Shown here: one piece after another, positions 7,105 through 14,035 of the stretch
Position numbering within the stretch: position 1 is the first letter of the stretch
Layout of the letters: each line of letters opens with the position of its first letter
Assembly (NCBI RefSeq): GCF_024584705.1
Contig: NZ_CP097384.1
Coordinates: forward strand, 5,084,001 to 5,148,000
Reading direction: 5' to 3'
Length of the DNA stretch: 64,000 nt
Origin: Blastopirellula sp. J2-11
Lineage (GTDB): Bacteria > Planctomycetota > Planctomycetia > Pirellulales > Pirellulaceae
Notes under the pieces: model-generated
What the model was told of the DNA's origin: nothing
The model's database searches: none
What the model saw: the letters and a program-made list of their open reading frames with translations, nothing else
Position numbers and translations under genes: made by a program

Positions 7105-7476
7105 CTATCTTCCGATCTGCACGAAGAACGCGACCCAAGGCAAAAGGCCGATGACCACCATCGCGCGCACGATCGCTTTGGGGGGAGCGGAGCGGCGCTG
7201 TTGCAAAACAACCGGAATTAACAGTACGCTGATCGTGCCGGTCACCATGGCGACCATCAACAGCAGCATCGAGATCGCTTCGAGTTGCGGCGACGGCTCG
7301 CCACTCGCCCAGATAGAGCCCTGCACGCAGATGATCGCGATTTCGGCCAGCAATGTGGTGACTCCGCACAGCATCCAAAAGATGGTCATCGAATCGGCGG
7401 CGCGCAACTCGGGGTCGGCGCCAACGCGGTGACTGTGCGTCTTCGGCTTGCGAGCCGTTTTCGACTTTTTGCTCAT
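7105..7476 (-). CDS. Small membrane protein, unknown function
   Basis: About 123 residues. A basic N-terminus (MSKKSKTARKPKTHSHR) is followed by three hydrophobic helices near residues 35-55, 66-88 and 100-120. No family was recognised. The start was placed at ATG 7476, which has GAAGG upstream; an in-frame upstream Met at 7536 lacks a clear site. It is convergent with the rhodanese-like gene. Annotated only as an integral membrane protein. Confidence 0.6.
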   Translation of the reverse strand: MSKKSKTARKPKTHSHRVGADPELRAADSMTIFWMLCGVTTLLAEIAIICVQGSIWASGEPSPQLEAISMLLLMVAMVTGTISVLLIPVVLQQRRSAPPKAIVRAMVVIGLLPWVAFFVQIGR

Positions 7477-7552
7477 AGAGAACGCCTTCAGAATGGGGAG
7501 AGTGGGGGCGACGCTTCTACCTTCTATCGTACCCATTCAACGCCGTTCAGGG

Positions 7553-7632: not shown

Positions 7633-8043
7633 CTAGTAGTATGAGTGGACGATCAAGTCGCCGCAGCGGGTGAAGACCATCCGGATATGGAATCCGCAGC
7701 ACCAGTCATATTCGACGATGGTACGTCCAAAGATGCCGGGATGGCTGCAAACCGTCGGCGCTCTTTTGCAACAAGCGGGAACGCAAACCGGCACTTCAAA
7801 CGCACAACTCGTGCAAGGTTTTTCTACAACCAGCACCATCTTGACCGGCGGCGCACAGCTGCAGCACTTGCGTGCGAATAGTTTGTGATGATCGCGATAC
7901 GAGATGCAAGGGGGCGCGCAGCACTCGACCGGCTCTGGAGCACAGCAGGACGGGTCAGCGGAAGCAGCGCTGGCGCCGCTTACCATACCGAGTGAGGCGA
8001 TCATGGCGAATACCAACGCCGGAATCAAAGTCGTACGAATCAT
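7633..8043 (-). CDS. Cysteine-rich exported protein, unknown function
   Basis: 136 residues with a clear Sec signal peptide (about 1-26, ending SGASA) and 17 cysteines in the mature part, many as adjacent CC pairs (SCC, ECC, KCCSC, ACC, WCC). No known metal-binding family was recognised. The start has AGGAGA upstream and the gene has its own terminator, so it is very likely expressed. A disulfide-rich or metal-binding envelope or secreted protein is the reasonable inference. It stands alone between unrelated genes. Confidence 0.75.
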   Translation of the reverse strand: MIRTTLIPALVFAMIASLGMVSGASAASADPSCCAPEPVECCAPPCISYRDHHKLFARKCCSCAPPVKMVLVVEKPCTSCAFEVPVCVPACCKRAPTVCSHPGIFGRTIVEYDWCCGFHIRMVFTRCGDLIVHSYY

Positions 8044-8397
8044 TGAGAATGTCTCCTGCGTAGTTGCTAAACGAGCTTCGCTGTCTGACTTAACCCTAAC
8101 ATGCTTTTCGGCGTGTGAAAAAGGGGCTGTGTCGATTATAGCGACTGCAGAGGATGCGACAAATGTATCGATATATACCCATCCCTAGGAAAAAGTAAAC
8201 ATTCACGATCTTGATTCTTTGCCTGCGGGACGATTTCGACCTACTTTTCAGTTGGCGAAGGTCGCAACCGACTGAACCGCCGCTACTTTCTTTTCAGTGA
8301 CGGAGGCGCATCGCCGCTTCCACTGCTTTTCATACGCAGGCTCGCGAAGACCGCGAGCAGACGAAACGATCACGCCTGGGTGGGAAGAAGAATCGCC
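8044..8397. other. Intergenic region, no gene seen
   Basis: 354 bp between two divergent genes. It must hold both promoters. I see no strong -35/-10 pair, no hairpin and no plausible short gene. The minus-strand reading frames entering from 8775 and 8857 are shadows of the coiled-coil gene. Confidence 0.5.
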
Positions 8398-9306
8398 GTG
8401 ACTGCCAGTCCAGAACAGTTGCTCCAGGTAGGTTACCCTGCCTTGGAAGAGGCGCTCGAACAGCTGAGGGCTCATAACCAGGGCCTGGAGCAATTCGTCG
8501 AAGAATTGGTGGCCGAACTTGGACGTTTGTCCGCTGAGTTCGAGCGCCGCTCGCTCGAAGCGTCTCAAGCCGCCGCGCAACAATCGACAGACGCAAATTC
8601 GGCCGCACAAAACTCGGCGGAACTTGCCCTGCTGCAACAAACGATCTCGGATCGCGAAAATCGTCTCTCCGCAGCCGAAGCGCAATTGAACGCCGCTCGT
8701 GCGGAGATCGATCAATGGAAATCTCAATGCAGCGCCGCCGAGTCGAGCGCCCAACGCCTGGCTGAGATGGAGCAAAGGAACGCCGAGCTAGAGCGACAAC
8801 TGCATGAATCGATCCAAGCGATGCGCGAGCTCGAAGAAAGCCGCGGTGAAATCTCACATCTGAAACAACAACTTGCGACGGTCAAAATCGAACTGCTCGA
8901 TGCGCAGCAGCAGTTTGAACGAGTCGACAGTTATGGAGCGGAGAGCGACGAGGAGCCGTTTGGCGAACTCGAAGATGAACTCGCTCGCGTTCGTAACCGC
9001 GCGGCCGAACTAACCGCGACGGTCGATCGACAGCAACGTGAAATTGCGGCGGAGCGGGCCGAATGGTCAACCGAATTGAAGTCCATGCGAACGATGTTGG
9101 AACGCCAGTCCGGTGCGATCGCGACACGTCCGGTTGCCGCCGACCAGTCACTCTCATCCACTTCGGTTGGAACCAACACCGTGGTGCGTGAATCGGCTCA
9201 ATCTCGTCCGCTGGGCGCCGACAATGTCGTCGATTCAGTAATGGCGCAATTCGCCAAATTACAACGTGACATCAGTCGTCGCCGAACCAACGGCCAAACG
9301 CGATAG
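8398..9306 (+). CDS. Coiled-coil protein, first gene of the GTPase operon
   Basis: About 302 residues, dominated by long heptad-like coiled coil (roughly residues 5-235), rich in Glu, Gln, Ala and Arg (for example LEEALEQLRAHNQGLEQF). A low-complexity linker and a conserved-looking C-terminal helix follow (VDSVMAQFAKLQRDISRRR). There is no signal peptide or membrane span, so it should be cytosolic. The start is GTG 8398, seven bases after GGAAGAA; an upstream GTG at 8380 is less well placed. It is 51 bp from the FGE-like gene and shares strand with three further genes. It is plausibly a scaffold; function unknown. Confidence 0.7.
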   Translation: MTASPEQLLQVGYPALEEALEQLRAHNQGLEQFVEELVAELGRLSAEFERRSLEASQAAAQQSTDANSAAQNSAELALLQQTISDRENRLSAAEAQLNAARAEIDQWKSQCSAAESSAQRLAEMEQRNAELERQLHESIQAMRELEESRGEISHLKQQLATVKIELLDAQQQFERVDSYGAESDEEPFGELEDELARVRNRAAELTATVDRQQREIAAERAEWSTELKSMRTMLERQSGAIATRPVAADQSLSSTSVGTNTVVRESAQSRPLGADNVVDSVMAQFAKLQRDISRRRTNGQTR

Positions 9307-9357
9307 TCGCAATCGCTGCTCAGGGGCAATGTCAAACTTGTTGCAGGACTGATTCCA

Positions 9358-10557
9358 ATGCTTTTCATCAAACAACACTGGACGACACTCGCGATCGGCG
9401 TCGCCGTCGGCGCGTTGGGGATCGCCTGGCTTGCAGGACTTTGGCAAATTGTCGTCGGCGTAGCCGCACTCGCTGCGGTCGCCGCATTCGTATTTCGCAT
9501 CGTACGCCATCGCCGACTTGCGGTAGCTGCATCGACAAGCGTAGCGCGCCCTCAAAGACCGAAATCACGCCCTGAGCCAGAGCCCTCCGATACGGAAGCT
9601 CTGGCTCGCTTGATGTTAGAGCAAGCACGATACGCTTTGCTGTTGCGACCCCAAATCGCGGCCAACCTGCCGCCGCATCTGTTAGACCAAGCCCGCGAAG
9701 CGTTTGACGACCAGATGACCATCGTCCCAGAAGGGGACGTCCTAGTCGGTCGTTGCAAAGGAAATGACGACCAGGAGCAAGCCTATGGCGGCAACCTGAT
9801 TCGGGTCGAAGCGGTCTATCTTGATCGCTTTCAAGTGACAAATGAAGAATACCAAGAATTTGTCAACGCCGGCGGATACGAACAGATGCCGCTGTGGGAC
9901 CCCGAAATCTGGCCGGCAGTGCTCGACTTTGTCGATCAGTCAGGCCTGCCGGGTCCCCGTTATTGGCGCAACAGCAAGCATGTCGAAGGGGAAGAACGAT
10001 TGCCGGTAGTCGGTCTTTGTTGGTACGAAGCGGCCGCCTATGCGCGCTGGGTCGGCAAACGACTTCCGTCTGATCCCGAATGGATGAAGGCCGGAGCATG
10101 GCCGGTCCCGTTGCCTGGCGCCGAACCAATCCAGCGCCGCTTTCCTTGGGGAGAGTCGATGGACCAAGGCCGAGCGAACCTTTGGGGCTGCGGTCCCGAG
10201 CATGTCGTCTCCGTCGATCAATACGGAAGCGGAGCAAGCGTAGGCGGGTGCCACCAACTGATCGGCAATGTTTGGGAATGGACCTCCAGTCGCTTCGGCG
10301 CCTGGCGATCTCCCGGAGATCAATTGGTGATGGATAGTGCGATGCGCAGCTTACGCGGCGGCGCCTATGACACCTATTTTGATCATCAAGCTTCGTGCGA
10401 TTATCAAAGCGGCGACAAGGCGGTCGCTCGCAAGCACAACATCGGGTTCCGCTGTGCGGTCAGCTTTTGCGATATTTTGCTCGAAGACGACTCGTTTGAT
10501 TCGGCAGGATCAGAAGACGAACTAGAAGCCGCCGGCGCGGCTGGGATGGAGAACTAA
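9358..10557 (+). CDS. Membrane-anchored formylglycine-generating-enzyme-like (SUMF1/FGE-sulfatase) protein
   Basis: 399 residues. An N-terminal pair of transmembrane helices (about 9-28 and 30-47) is followed by RIVRHRR, which by the positive-inside rule puts the rest in the cytosol. A ~70-residue linker leads to an FGE-sulfatase domain (about 120-372) with FPWGE, GNVWEWTSS, LRGGAYD and a final NIGFRCA. By hand alignment to human SUMF1, one active-site cysteine is kept (ASCDY) but its partner is Asp, so oxidase activity is doubtful. Its stop is 2 bp before the GTPase start. A binding or sensor role is inferred. Confidence 0.8.
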   Translation: MLFIKQHWTTLAIGVAVGALGIAWLAGLWQIVVGVAALAAVAAFVFRIVRHRRLAVAASTSVARPQRPKSRPEPEPSDTEALARLMLEQARYALLLRPQIAANLPPHLLDQAREAFDDQMTIVPEGDVLVGRCKGNDDQEQAYGGNLIRVEAVYLDRFQVTNEEYQEFVNAGGYEQMPLWDPEIWPAVLDFVDQSGLPGPRYWRNSKHVEGEERLPVVGLCWYEAAAYARWVGKRLPSDPEWMKAGAWPVPLPGAEPIQRRFPWGESMDQGRANLWGCGPEHVVSVDQYGSGASVGGCHQLIGNVWEWTSSRFGAWRSPGDQLVMDSAMRSLRGGAYDTYFDHQASCDYQSGDKAVARKHNIGFRCAVSFCDILLEDDSFDSAGSEDELEAAGAAGMEN

Positions 10558-10559
10558 TT

Positions 10560-11462
10560 ATGGTACGCAAAGCGCTCGTAGCCATGGAATCGTATCGCTT
10601 GGCGCAATACGCAGTTCCGATTTCCTGTTACATCTGCGGCGGCGACAACAACTACGATGTTGAGTTATGTCGTCACTGTTCGGCGCCGATGGCCTTGTCG
10701 CATCAAGCCAATTCGCAAGGGATCGAGCCTGGAATGATCGCCGTGCTGGGAACCGCCGCAGCTGGCAAAACCGTCTACTTGGGGATGCTGCTGGATATGC
10801 TGACGCGCCGAAACAATCGCGTGCAAGTATTGGCTCGCGGCGCGTTTTCGATCACCCTGCAACAACGCACGATGGCGGCGCTGGCCGCTTCCGCATTTCC
10901 TGAAAAAACGCCTAACGAACCAGATCGCTGGAACTGGGTTCATTGCCAAGCGAAGCTCCCCAGCCAAAAACGGCCGATCGAATTGATCATGCCCGATATG
11001 GCCGGCGAGGCGATCCTGGAAGAAGTCGATCACCCCCATTCGTATCCGGCGATTCACTCCTTCTTGAAAAAATGTGCCGGCGTTTTATTGTTAATCGACA
11101 CCGAACGGATCGAAGACGGCTCGCAAGAACAAAACTATTTCATGATGAAGCTGATTACCTATCTCAGCGAACAATCGCAAAAGAAACGTCGTGGCAAGTG
11201 CGTACGCCCTATGGCGATCGTATTTTCCAAAGCGGATCAGTGCGATCCCTGCTTCGCCAATCCGGATCGATACGCGCGTGATCGTACGCCGAACCTCTGG
11301 CAGCAGATCGGCGAACGTTTTGAGACGGTTGGCTTCTTCGCTTCCAGCGTGACCGGCGCGTGTACGCAGAAGATGGATCATGGCTTGAGGGTAAACGTAC
11401 CGCTGCGAATCGAACCGCGCGGCATTGTCGAGCCATTCGAGTGGCTCATTCGCAAAGTTTAA
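10560..11462 (+). CDS. Zinc-ribbon P-loop GTPase (double-GTPase/GAP1-type conflict-system family)
   Basis: 300 residues. An N-terminal zinc ribbon has Cys23, Cys26, Cys37 and Cys40. Next comes a GTPase-like domain with P-loop GTAAAGKT (64-71), Walker B/G3 as DMAG (146-149) and a G4-like SKAD (223-226) in place of NKxD. That set points to the TRAFAC GTPase class. ATG at 10560 has GGAG about 11 bases upstream; MESYRLAQY at 10584 is an alternative start. Placement between the FGE-like and GAP1-like genes suggests a nucleotide-switch component. Comparison to the 'DO-GTPase' families is from memory and unverified. Confidence 0.75.
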   Translation: MVRKALVAMESYRLAQYAVPISCYICGGDNNYDVELCRHCSAPMALSHQANSQGIEPGMIAVLGTAAAGKTVYLGMLLDMLTRRNNRVQVLARGAFSITLQQRTMAALAASAFPEKTPNEPDRWNWVHCQAKLPSQKRPIELIMPDMAGEAILEEVDHPHSYPAIHSFLKKCAGVLLLIDTERIEDGSQEQNYFMMKLITYLSEQSQKKRRGKCVRPMAIVFSKADQCDPCFANPDRYARDRTPNLWQQIGERFETVGFFASSVTGACTQKMDHGLRVNVPLRIEPRGIVEPFEWLIRKV

Positions 11463-11515
11463 ATCGGTTTGATCATCGCTTGCCTCCAACTTCCCCTCGC
11501 AGGTTCTCATCCTTT

Positions 11516-12895
11516 ATGGGCGTCACGATCCAACAAGCAATTTTCACTTCGGCGCAAACCTCGCGTCTTGACGGCTATCAACTGGTCGCCGCTAGTCGCG
11601 GAGTTTCCGTAGAAGACTCGCGCGAACTAGCGACTTGGTGCCCGGCGCACGATGCGATGCTACGTGATGATTTCGCCGCTTACAGCGTCAATTTTCATCC
11701 GATTGGCGCCGGTCGATATTGCGTCTCGCGCACCATCAATGGACAGACCGAATATAGCGGCCGCGGCGGTCGCCAGGTGTACACCCACTGTCTGTTGATT
11801 GACGCGCCGCAGTTTGCGCTATTCGCCAACAATCCGTTTCATCTGCTGACCGCCGCAACGGTCGACGCGAATATTTGTTGGCAAAGCTCGCTTCCGTCCG
11901 AACTTTCCGAAATCAAGCTGCTTCCCGCCAGCAAAGGGATCGATCTGGCGTTGTTCAAACAATCGCAAAAAGACAGAACTCCCTACTTGCTGACCGCCTG
12001 GTTTCAGGAAGCGCTCGATAAGCCTCGCTTGGCTCTGACCGGATACGGGGGGGATGAGAGTCTCTTCGCTCAGTTCTTCAATCTGACGCCGATTAGTCTC
12101 CGTCCACAATTCTCCTTCTCGACCGGGCTCCGCTATTCACAGCGGCGACCATTCCGGTTTCTCGGATTGGAAAGCAATCATGAAGAGCAACGGCGAGCCG
12201 TTCGCGGAGAAGGGATGACGCTGCTTGATCTGGCGAATCCGCCGATGAACGGGGACCGCTTGCGAAACGCGTGGGCGACATGGATCTTGGTCGCGTTGCG
12301 CACCAATTTACCAGCGTCTGCGGTTAAGCTACTTAGTCAGGCAGATCCCCGTCTCGACATGTCGCAGCTCGATGTCTTGGGCCAACAATTGCGACTCAAA
12401 TTGCTCTCCATGGAAGAGGACGAAACGCAGATTGCCGCCGATATGGAACGTGAAGACGTAGTCGCCTCCGCGATCACCGCCGTCGACGCACCCAACACGT
12501 CAGAAGGACAACGCAAGATTGTCCGCAGCCACGCGCCGCATCCGGCTCACTCACGCGCCGCTAGTTCGGCTCGCTTGGTGCAAATTGCTGGACCATTACC
12601 CTCGACGCAAATCGCAGGAATCTCGATTCATGAGCAGCAGCGATTGGCGCAGCTGGATGAGTTGGTCGCTGGAGCTCTGACCGGCAGCATCGAATCCCTC
12701 GCCCAATTGCAGAACGTCTGGCCCGAGATTGCGTGTGAACTTCCACCGTCCCTGCGCAGTGACGTGCAAGAGCGGTACCTTGCCTACGCCGTTGTCGCTT
12801 GGAAGCGGCTCAACGACCGACGCATCAGCCGCAATCCGCAAACTGCAGCAAGTTTGCTCGACGTCCTCTCGCTGATATTCACATCCGCGGCCTAG
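11516..12895 (+). CDS. GTPase-associated protein 1 (GAP1)-like protein
   Basis: 459 residues, cytosolic. The N-terminal ~100 residues carry a motif series that I recall for the GAP1 N-terminal domain: IQQAIFTS at the start, GYQLVAASRGVS (20-31), ELATWCPAHD, SVNFHPIGAGRYCVSRT and YSGRGGRQVYTHCLL. The middle (about 180-300) contains FNLTPISLRPQFSFSTGLRYS, and the tail is Ala/Arg-rich with a helical end. The start was set at ATG 11516, 53 bp after the GTPase stop; an upstream in-frame extension to 11360 would overlap the GTPase gene. No strong ribosome-binding site is visible. It probably partners the GTPase. The family call is a motif match only. Confidence 0.7.
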   Translation: MGVTIQQAIFTSAQTSRLDGYQLVAASRGVSVEDSRELATWCPAHDAMLRDDFAAYSVNFHPIGAGRYCVSRTINGQTEYSGRGGRQVYTHCLLIDAPQFALFANNPFHLLTAATVDANICWQSSLPSELSEIKLLPASKGIDLALFKQSQKDRTPYLLTAWFQEALDKPRLALTGYGGDESLFAQFFNLTPISLRPQFSFSTGLRYSQRRPFRFLGLESNHEEQRRAVRGEGMTLLDLANPPMNGDRLRNAWATWILVALRTNLPASAVKLLSQADPRLDMSQLDVLGQQLRLKLLSMEEDETQIAADMEREDVVASAITAVDAPNTSEGQRKIVRSHAPHPAHSRAASSARLVQIAGPLPSTQIAGISIHEQQRLAQLDELVAGALTGSIESLAQLQNVWPEIACELPPSLRSDVQERYLAYAVVAWKRLNDRRISRNPQTAASLLDVLSLIFTSAA

Positions 12896-12901
12896 AGAAC
12901 C

Positions 12902-14035
12902 TTACTTGCGCCCCGCCGGTTTCGCAGGCGTTGCCGGCGGTGGATTGTTCGTCGGCATTTTTGGTTGCGGGGGCTTTTGCAACTTCGGCGGCAAGATCGC
13001 GTCAACTTGGATCGCTTTGCGGCCTTTGAACGCGCCTGGAAAGGCCAGAAACTTGGTCACGCCGTTCACGCTTACTTGCAGCGGTTCGCGTGAATCCTTC
13101 GGCGTTGTAATCACATCCCCCACGCGCAGTTCCAGCAGGTCTTCGGTCGTAATCTTCGTCTCGGCCAGCGTCACGCCAACTTCGACCGAAGCGCCGTCGA
13201 TCTGCGTACTGAGCGCCTGTCGCGACTCTTCGCTCACTTCCGAAGTGCCGTAGGCGAACCAGGTATTCGCGGTCAATTTGCCGCCGATTCGTTCGATCGA
13301 ATTGAACGGGATACACAAGTTCATCATCCCGCGTACGTCGCCGATCGTCAGTTCAAAACTGATCAGCACGACCACTTCATTCGGTGGGACGATCTGCACC
13401 AACTGCGGGTTACTCTCGACGCGGACGACGTTCAATTGCAGGTCGAGGACGTTCTCCCAGGCAATTCGCAGCTCACGCAAAAATAAATTGGTGATCCGCG
13501 CAACCAGCGTTAGTTCGATCTCGGTCAGTGGGCGGCGTGAAACTGGGCTGCTCTCTTTGCCGCCCCCCAGTAAACGATCGATGATCGGATACAGGATCGA
13601 CGGATTGATGTCGAGAATCAGGTTCCCTTCCAGCGGACTGGCGGTCAACAAATTGAAACAACTGGGATTCTCAAGACTGAAGATGAACTCGCTATAGGTC
13701 AGCTGATCGACGCTGGTCAGTTTCACTTCGACGATGTTGCGCAGCAGCCCCGAAAGAGCGGCGCCAAAGTTTCGACCGAAGCCTTCGTGCATCGATTGCA
13801 GCGCCCGCATCTGCTCTTTGCCGACGCGTTCTGGACGCTTGAAGTCGTAAGGAGTGATCTTCTCGCGCGGGCGCGCAGGCTTCGTAATGTCGTCGCTGGC
13901 GGACGTGGTCGCGGCGACGTTCTGGACGCTGGCTTGCTGTGGACTGGCGGCCTCGGGCTTTTTGGGCCCGCTCGCTTCCATCGCGTTCAGCAGGCTTTCG
14001 ACCTCCGCCTGGCTCAGCACATTGTCGTTGCCCAT
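12902..14035 (-). CDS. fliM: Flagellar motor switch protein FliM
   Basis: FliM sits in the C-ring of the flagellar motor, binds CheY-P and sets rotation direction. The 377 residues begin with LSQAEVESLL, the CheY-binding N-terminal peptide. After a Pro/Ala/Ser linker comes the middle domain (ITPYDFKRPERVGKEQMRAL, FSLENPSCFNLL, PSILYPIIDRLLGG) and a C-terminal SpoA-like domain (ISTTEDLLELRVGDVI type, here ITTEDLLELRVGDVI). AGGGAGGG precedes the ATG. No other flagellar gene is nearby; it lies 42 bp downstream of proA and converges with the GAP1-like gene with 6 bp between stops. Confidence 0.95.
   Translation of the reverse strand: MGNDNVLSQAEVESLLNAMEASGPKKPEAASPQQASVQNVAATTSASDDITKPARPREKITPYDFKRPERVGKEQMRALQSMHEGFGRNFGAALSGLLRNIVEVKLTSVDQLTYSEFIFSLENPSCFNLLTASPLEGNLILDINPSILYPIIDRLLGGGKESSPVSRRPLTEIELTLVARITNLFLRELRIAWENVLDLQLNVVRVESNPQLVQIVPPNEVVVLISFELTIGDVRGMMNLCIPFNSIERIGGKLTANTWFAYGTSEVSEESRQALSTQIDGASVEVGVTLAETKITTEDLLELRVGDVITTPKDSREPLQVSVNGVTKFLAFPGAFKGRKAIQVDAILPPKLQKPPQPKMPTNNPPPATPAKPAGRK

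Follow-up and report, generated by a model that had tools for sequence, protein, structure and literature searches.

A conserved coiled-coil, FGE-like, DO-GTPase and GAP1 operon of Blastopirellula sp. J2-11 as a candidate Ras-like signalling switch

What is a Ras-like GTPase doing in a planctomycete when its gene stands between those of an FGE-fold protein and a GAP1 protein? The question is posed by an operon in the 64,000-nucleotide stretch of the Blastopirellula sp. J2-11 genome analysed here (contig NZ_CP097384.1, positions 5,084,001 to 5,148,000; the window), in which four plus-strand genes occupying 8380/8398-12895 encode a coiled coil, an FGE-like protein with a transmembrane (TM) hairpin, a zinc-ribbon DO-GTPase and a GAP1-N2 protein (Table 1). 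To our knowledge, DO-GTPase/GAP1-N2 systems are known from comparative genomics only. The core of the operon is itself already known, because the main text of Kaur et al. 2020 (PMC7159879) describes such systems, casts them as antiviral and gives one sentence to planctomycete examples with FGS (FGE-like) domains. New here are the fixed FGE-GTPase-GAP1 order, a coiled-coil partner with a basic tail helix, a short form of GAP1 and a chemosensory context. We favour the reading, at a probability of about 0.5, that the operon encodes a stable signalling switch in which a Ras-like GTPase is controlled by a regulator of its own, in the manner of Frz-RomR-MglA/MglB, over an antiviral conflict system and over a flagellum-specific accessory. 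This reading draws on the observed gene content, order and conservation of the operon, purifying selection, the missing catalytic cysteine pair of the FGE-like protein, linkage to chemosensory genes in one branch (type B) and co-variation of GAP1 with a GTPase active-site acid.

Composition and recurrence of the operon

A first-pass annotation of this DNA, made from its letters and open reading frames (ORFs), had described four same-strand genes with gaps of 51, 2 and 53 bp, encoding a coiled coil of ~300 residues, a TM-hairpin FGE-sulfatase-like protein, a GTPase with a zinc ribbon and the motifs GTAAAGKT, DMAG and SKAD, and a GAP1-like protein. The ORF analysis agrees with this layout, and the profile matches, motifs and hydropathy scan given below bear out the four descriptions. 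Pfam matches FGE, DO-GTPase1, DO-GTPase2 and GAP1-N2, but not the GAP1-M and GAP1-C families that the annotation had also named. The coiled-coil ORF starts with a GTG at 8380, an in-frame GTG at 8398 being the start chosen in the first pass; the longest GAP1 ORF starts at 11360, and the ATG at 11516 agrees with the orthologues.

Table 1. Positions of the operon genes and of the convergent neighbour within the window.
Feature	Positions	Strand	Basis
Coiled-coil adaptor (candidate), 302-308 residues, conserved basic helix at end SVMAQFAKLQRDISRRR	8380..9306	+	ORF; coiled-coil-only family matches; tail motif
FGE/EgtB-fold protein with a hairpin of two TM segments at the N-terminus; lacks the FGE catalytic Cys pair (RGGAYDTYF)	9358..10557	+	PF03781 E 3.2e-36; alignment; hydropathy scan; solved relatives EgtB, FGE
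DO-GTPase (Ras-like, YcjX-like), N-terminal CxxC...CxxC zinc ribbon	10560..11462	+	PF19975/PF19993; invariant motifs; AlphaFold model; Foldseek
Short GAP1, 459 residues, GAP1-N2 plus alpha/beta and helical regions	11516..12895	+	PF20013 E 1.2e-14; model; Foldseek
fliM, convergent neighbour; context, not counted in the module	12902..14035	-	PF02154 E 5.6e-63; FliM family in 12/47 loci

The window genome, a single contig of 6.43 Mb, holds one PF20013 match. GAP1 orthologues are found in 4/4 genomes of the genus at 83-100% identity (its own genome included), three of them with the same flanking genes. Among 149 genomes of the family, the GAP1 protein search matches 49, two of them weakly (G012 and G064, E ~1e-5), and the GTPase profile matches 56, of which 54 are strong once two weak matches (G019 and G027, E ~1e-8) are excluded. 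The closest named relative among the matches listed is Blastopirellula marina DSM 3645, whose GTPase is 99% identical, and a plasmid search with the GTPase protein returned no match.

In a first set of 47 FGE-bearing loci the order FGE-GTPase-GAP1 is found in 47/47, with a coiled coil recovered by one-sequence phmmer in 26. A larger set combined regions of family genomes with the best 80 of 134 candidate contig loci (77 planctomycete, two titled 'bacterium' and one Nealsonbacteria); removal of 15 loci with duplicate GTPases left 109 with GTPase and FGE, extra regions brought these to 113, and one locus with a short domain was dropped to give the 112 in the tree. In 112/112 loci, which were chosen for carrying both, the GTPase gene is preceded by FGE on its own strand, and GAP1 directly follows the GTPase in all 100 loci that have GAP1. 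The four-gene cluster is not a chance grouping, and the neighbourhood survey that the first-pass annotation had proposed finds the linkage to recur.

The tree of concatenated GTPase and FGE resolves type B (23 loci, support 0.96), made up of 20 family genomes, one genome of the same class (L089) and two Singulisphaera, and type C (nine loci, six titled Phycisphaerae or Phycisphaerales, support 1.0). Type A, which includes the window, is defined by exclusion as the loci with GAP1 that are neither B nor listed as C. In the GAP1 tree (100 tips) the type B clade has a support of 0.83, less strong than in the GTPase and FGE tree.

Chemosensory genes in type B and the antiviral alternative

The type B loci place the module at the end of a chemosensory operon. 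In L055, Pfam identifies a receiver, a CheW, a methyl-accepting chemotaxis protein (MCP) signalling domain and a CheA-like kinase (Hpt, HATPase, CheW and receiver), followed by a receiver-DUF4388 protein, a protein with an FHA domain and, by sequence, a coiled coil, and a small protein without matches (the type B coiled coil); FGE, DO-GTPase and GAP1-N2 complete the series. DUF4388 is the Pfam entry that we take to be PATAN. CheA, receiver-DUF4388 and FHA-coiled coil stand before FGE-GTPase-GAP1 in 23/23 type B loci, with order and strand constant; the small coiled coil is detected by profile in 22, and MCP in 19 and CheW in seven, the absences of these two coinciding with the end or near-end of the available stretch. 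A receiver-DUF4388 profile (E <= 1e-40) run against the 149 family genomes finds 20/20 type B, 0/26 type A and four others (G011, G069, G096 and G133); in G096 the FGE gene lies at a contig end, and in G011 the receiver gene is alone in 20 kb. In type B, a chemosensory pathway running through MCP, CheW, CheA-receiver, receiver-DUF4388 and FHA-coiled coil would have the module as its output.

Several further observations concern these genes. The receiver-DUF4388 protein (L055:12022-13554 and orthologues) has a mean column identity of 53% over 19 proteins and, by eye, a second, degenerate receiver at its C-terminus. At positions 3000-20000 of L172 and L173 (G069 and G133, genus g67) the type B chemosensory operon is present with neither FGE nor GTPase, and in L173 GAP1 directly follows the small coiled coil; these loci look like decay of the module. 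An FHA-coiled-coil profile (E <= 1e-15) was rejected as a marker: it matches at least 143 of the 149 family genomes, at up to ~100 bits outside type B, G069, G096 and G133, and those outside matches were not counted because they cover only the first ~200 positions, as in a generic FHA protein.

The first-pass annotation had placed the operon with predicted NTP-dependent conflict or signalling systems. Kaur et al. propose a conflict role, and on that view the operon would be an NTP-dependent anti-phage device in which GAP1 senses the invader, the GTPase sets the threshold and the membrane FGE-like protein is the effector. The families at its core are the ones treated by Kaur et al., who list planctomycete FGS-domain effectors and associate GAP1-N2 with a multicellular habit, and the patchy distribution across the family, by GAP1 or by strong GTPase matches, fits such a role. 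The measurements made here do not support this framing: the same FGE-like partner recurs across orders, the genomic setting within the genus is stable, PF20013 occurs once in the genome, and chemosensory genes precede the module in type B. PADLOC returns no match for FGE, GTPase or GAP1, though its library may hold no such model, and gives coiled-coil matches alone for gene 1.

Selection argues in the same direction. Ratios of nonsynonymous to synonymous substitution rates (dN/dS) between the window and three congeners are low for the GTPase (0.011-0.035), GAP1 (0.044-0.060), FGE (0.073-0.128) and the coiled coil (0.110-0.135), next to asnS (by eye, 0.018-0.049), fliM (0.059-0.066) and folP (by eye, 0.080-0.118), several of the ratios being rough because dS exceeds 1; the rows for proA and gene 16073 were left out, as was 15534, which aligned poorly (28-46% identity, ratio 0.26-0.45). 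Whole-gene comparisons give no hint of diversifying evolution, and the genes are under purifying selection. We therefore regard a conflict system as rather unlikely, a signalling role being likelier than the proposed virus-fighting one because in the sister branch the switch ends a sensing pathway.

The four products and the proposed switch

The GTPase matches DO-GTPase1 (PF19975, 8.6e-14) and DO-GTPase2 (PF19993, 1.4e-13) above the Pfam cut-offs, and its cysteines 23, 26, 37 and 40 and the motifs GTAAAGKT, PDMAGE and SKAD are conserved across relatives. The AlphaFold model (predicted local distance difference test score, pLDDT, 88.8) has YcjX (PDB 6nz4-6nz6) as its best structural match in Foldseek, and it also resembles Arl, Rab and Rag. 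The residue after DxxG, E150, occupies what we take to be the position of Ras Gln61. The Walker-B acid of DO-GTPases is found there in 100/100 GAP1-bearing loci (E in 95, D in five), against 3/10 of the GAP1-less loci, a set that omits the contig-end loci L136 and L138 (Fisher 4e-9, not corrected for kinship). Seven FGE-GTPase pairs with no GAP1 detected (L178, L179, L180, L181, L182, L183 and L152) no longer have the acid after DxxG; in the six of them with enough upstream sequence, the tail motif of the coiled-coil gene, described below, was not found. These pairs are possibly a hydrolysis-independent derivative.

GAP1, encoded downstream of the GTPase, reaches 54.9 bits with PF20013 against a cut-off of 24, and its GYQL and EYSGRGGR motifs are conserved. 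It is not a three-domain GAP1 (N, M and C): the window copy matches N2 and, weakly, N1 only (E <= 1), and among 46 relatives GAP1-M is weak in 12 and GAP1-C found in none. The model (pLDDT 84.3) shows at residues 3-118 a beta-beta-alpha-beta-beta-beta-alpha order, which is longin-like. Longin folds are related to Roadblock/MglB, the GTPase-activating proteins (GAPs) of MglA, according to the part of Zhang et al. 2012 (PMC3521125) that treats them. Foldseek ranks TagF, a type VI secretion system regulator, first (E 7.6e-4), the sole match at E <= 0.001 and one with a low template modelling (TM) score; FLCN-FNIP2, DENND10/Commander, GATOR1 and Loki longin follow at E > 1e-3 with low TM scores amid unrelated folds. 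The likeness to longin and TagF is without sequence support, the GAP1 profile reaching a best E of 0.68 against PDB sequences, and no Roadblock Pfam match at E <= 0.1 was found in the 46 members. The longin-like topology of the model is suggestive only.

Long forms of GAP1 also occur in planctomycetes. Eleven loci of this kind were examined: GAP1 is of 733-877 residues in 9/11 (L085 has 370, and L090 is cut at 591), the GTPase is more distant, and the examined stretch contains no FGE match. By eye, L080 and L083 each carry a GYF-like gene, that of L083 downstream, and in L083, L087 and L088 one DO-GTPase gene lies between two long GAP1 genes on the same strand.

The strong PF03781 match of the FGE-like protein is accompanied by two predicted TM segments. 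At least one TM segment is predicted before the FGE domain in 51/63 type A loci, 0/23 of type B and 0/9 of type C, so the first-pass view of a planctomycete version with a membrane-tethered FGE holds for the branch of the window but not for the other two. EgtB and FGE, both enzymes with solved structures, are its PDB relatives, and one alternative is that the protein is itself an active enzyme, generating formylglycine or forming sulfoxides as EgtB does, under control of the GTPase. The FGE catalytic cysteine pair, which we take to lie in RGGSxxCxxxxC, is replaced across 34 aligned FGE-like proteins, mostly by RGGA(F/Y)D(T/S)YF, and no cysteine is invariant among them, although that of IGFRC is nearly so; a binding role is therefore likelier than catalysis. 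The N-terminal part of EgtB binds iron, and the EgtB match, confined to residues 174-370 of a 447-residue chain, excludes that part. NCBIfam cut-offs for EgtB (TIGR03440, 112.1 vs 360 bits, matching from profile position 138) and SenA (88.8 vs 420 bits) are not reached, and we consider enzymatic activity very improbable. The conserved C-terminus of the 34 aligned proteins argues against the FGE domain being a target of a diversity-generating retroelement, though reverse transcriptase genes were not searched for.

Gene 1 has no Pfam family of its own and gives generic coiled-coil matches below the cut-off only. The ORF upstream of FGE nevertheless carries a short motif within its last 60 residues, of the form SVMAQFxxLQRDxxRRR in most Pirellulales, QFQxLRREM-like in type B and FRKLRRDAKRR-like in type C. 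One pattern for this motif, composed after viewing the same loci so that the contrast is descriptive, matches 56/62 type A, 20/23 type B and 9/9 type C loci (85/94 testable GAP1-bearing loci in all, eight loci with <900 nt upstream being excluded; missing in L117, L133, L139, L147, L148, L149, L071, L076 and L170), against 6/170 control sites, 250/7477 background ORFs and 2/11 GAP1-less loci (1/9 without L136 and L138, which are cut by contig ends).

The proposed switch assigns a role to each product. The zinc-ribbon DO-GTPase would cycle between GTP and GDP, and GAP1 would be the regulator devoted to it, most probably acting jointly with E150 to promote hydrolysis. For the FGE-fold protein we predict a non-enzymatic role as scaffold or ligand-binding partner; in type A its TM hairpin would tether the complex to the membrane on the inner side. 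The coiled-coil protein may serve as a long adaptor, attached to the complex by its conserved C-terminal basic helix. The module would probably let a sensed signal decide spatial or surface behaviour (polarity, motility or attachment), much as Frz-RomR-MglA/MglB does in Myxococcus. We infer the physical complex, the GAP activity, the topology and the behavioural output from the gene set and the models. In the lineage of the window, the module is freestanding, in flagellated cells; eight CheW-domain matches lie elsewhere in that genome, and unlinked input is therefore possible.

Several points weigh against this reading, beside the rough dN/dS ratios and the descriptive motif contrast already given. 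The patchy presence (54/149 by strong GTPase matches) fits an accessory or defence system too. Seven of the ten GAP1-less loci form one clade (support 0.99), and because of this the association of E150 with GAP1 reflects few independent events; three GAP1-less loci are exceptions to it: D is retained in L177 and in L155, where ~1.2 kb of contig remains, and E in L154, which lies close to the end of its contig. In G011, G069 and G133, type B chemosensory genes are present but neither FGE nor GTPase is found in the stretch examined; the linkage is strong, yet the chemosensory genes can be kept where the GTPase is absent. As receiver-DUF4388 is missing from the window genome, as from 26/26 type A genomes (E <= 1e-40), type A is linked to chemosensing by relatedness only. 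Finally, the GAP1 fold matches are weak, with one at E <= 0.001.

Flanking genes and known systems

The adjacent fliM raises the alternative that type A is a flagellum-linked accessory, with the module controlling how flagella are assembled, placed or switched. Canonical FliM (>150 bits) is present in 25/26 type A, 5/20 type B, 7/8 GAP1-less and 49/95 module-free genomes, counts not corrected for kinship, and the FliM family falls within the examined stretch in the 12 of 47 loci noted in Table 1. However, proA and folP (by eye) are also shared neighbours, in 12 loci each, and the fliM adjacency may for this reason reflect no more than synteny. Among the type A loci of the larger set, many lack FliM in the stretch examined (lengths differ), and one type A genome, G044, gives no FliM match. 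We judge a flagellum-specific role to be distinctly unlikely. Besides canonical FliM, genomes of the family contain many divergent FliM-like matches (~30-136 bits). Upstream of the operon, two small divergent minus-strand genes (7105-7536 and 7633-8043) have no Pfam match; their families occur at matching distance in 15 and 14 of 47 loci, respectively, and the 7633-8043 product is, by eye, cysteine-rich with a signal-like N-terminus.

The signalling switch can be set beside several known systems. As described in the main text of Kaur et al., their systems share with the window module a DO-GTPase with a zinc ribbon, a downstream GAP1-N2 and planctomycete FGS examples, but the window module differs in its short GAP1, constant FGE, coiled coil with conserved tail and, in one clade, junction to chemosensory genes. 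The first-pass annotation did not know the four-part combination to be described; GAP1-N2 with FGS in planctomycetes had in fact been reported in 2020, and the coiled coil, the short GAP1 and the chemosensory context are additions to it. FnIII, a variable sensor component of those systems, has no match in the four genes and three neighbours, the part of the genome searched, and the FGE-like gene is not a highly variable effector, given its invariant position before the GTPase in loci chosen for both and its low in-genus dN/dS. The main text (PMC7159879) contains none of the terms chemotaxis, CheA, methyl-accepting, chemosens, longin, Roadblock or DENN, and mentions coiled coils twice, for vWA proteins and for the tails of firmicute tubulins of GAP1-N2 systems. 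In partly incomplete listings of the literature, we found nothing joining DO-GTPase/GAP1-N2 to planctomycete chemosensory or PATAN systems and no second paper naming GAP1-N2; a phage-shock paper mentions DO-GTPase once.

Like type B, Frz-RomR-MglA/MglB of Myxococcus combines, in the account available in PMC3441718, a chemosensory pathway, a response regulator and a Ras-like GTPase with its own GAP. Here the GTPase is of another family, the GAP is of another sequence family, FGE-like and FHA-coiled-coil parts are added, and the type A window is without linked chemosensory genes. Cyanobacterial Pix/Tax likewise joins an MCP-type receptor to receiver-PATAN output in a chemotaxis-like system, and the available sections of PMC7690835 mention no DO-GTPase, GAP1 or FGE module. 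TagF, FLCN, GATOR1 and DENN entries share a weak fold likeness with GAP1 and no sequence match; TagF acts by binding Fha, as stated in the part of PMC5995506 concerned, and an FHA protein is among those encoded in type B.

A broader proposal, which we put forward tentatively and with more doubt than conviction, is that Planctomycetota possess an independent counterpart of Frz-RomR-MglA/MglB, built from a YcjX/Rag-like zinc-ribbon GTPase, a longin-fold (possibly longin-DENN-like) GAP and a scaffold of dead FGE and coiled coil, and driven in one old clade by a chemosensory array via receiver-PATAN and FHA proteins. The type B operon suggests a role for GAP1 as the GTPase's own regulator, and the type B clade provides a concrete alternative to the antiviral view that is testable in cultured planctomycetes. 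If the signalling reading is true, DO-GTPase/GAP1 systems may be signalling switches generally, not antiviral devices, and bacteria would have, besides that of Myxococcus, another case in which a chemosensory pathway works via a Ras-like GTPase.

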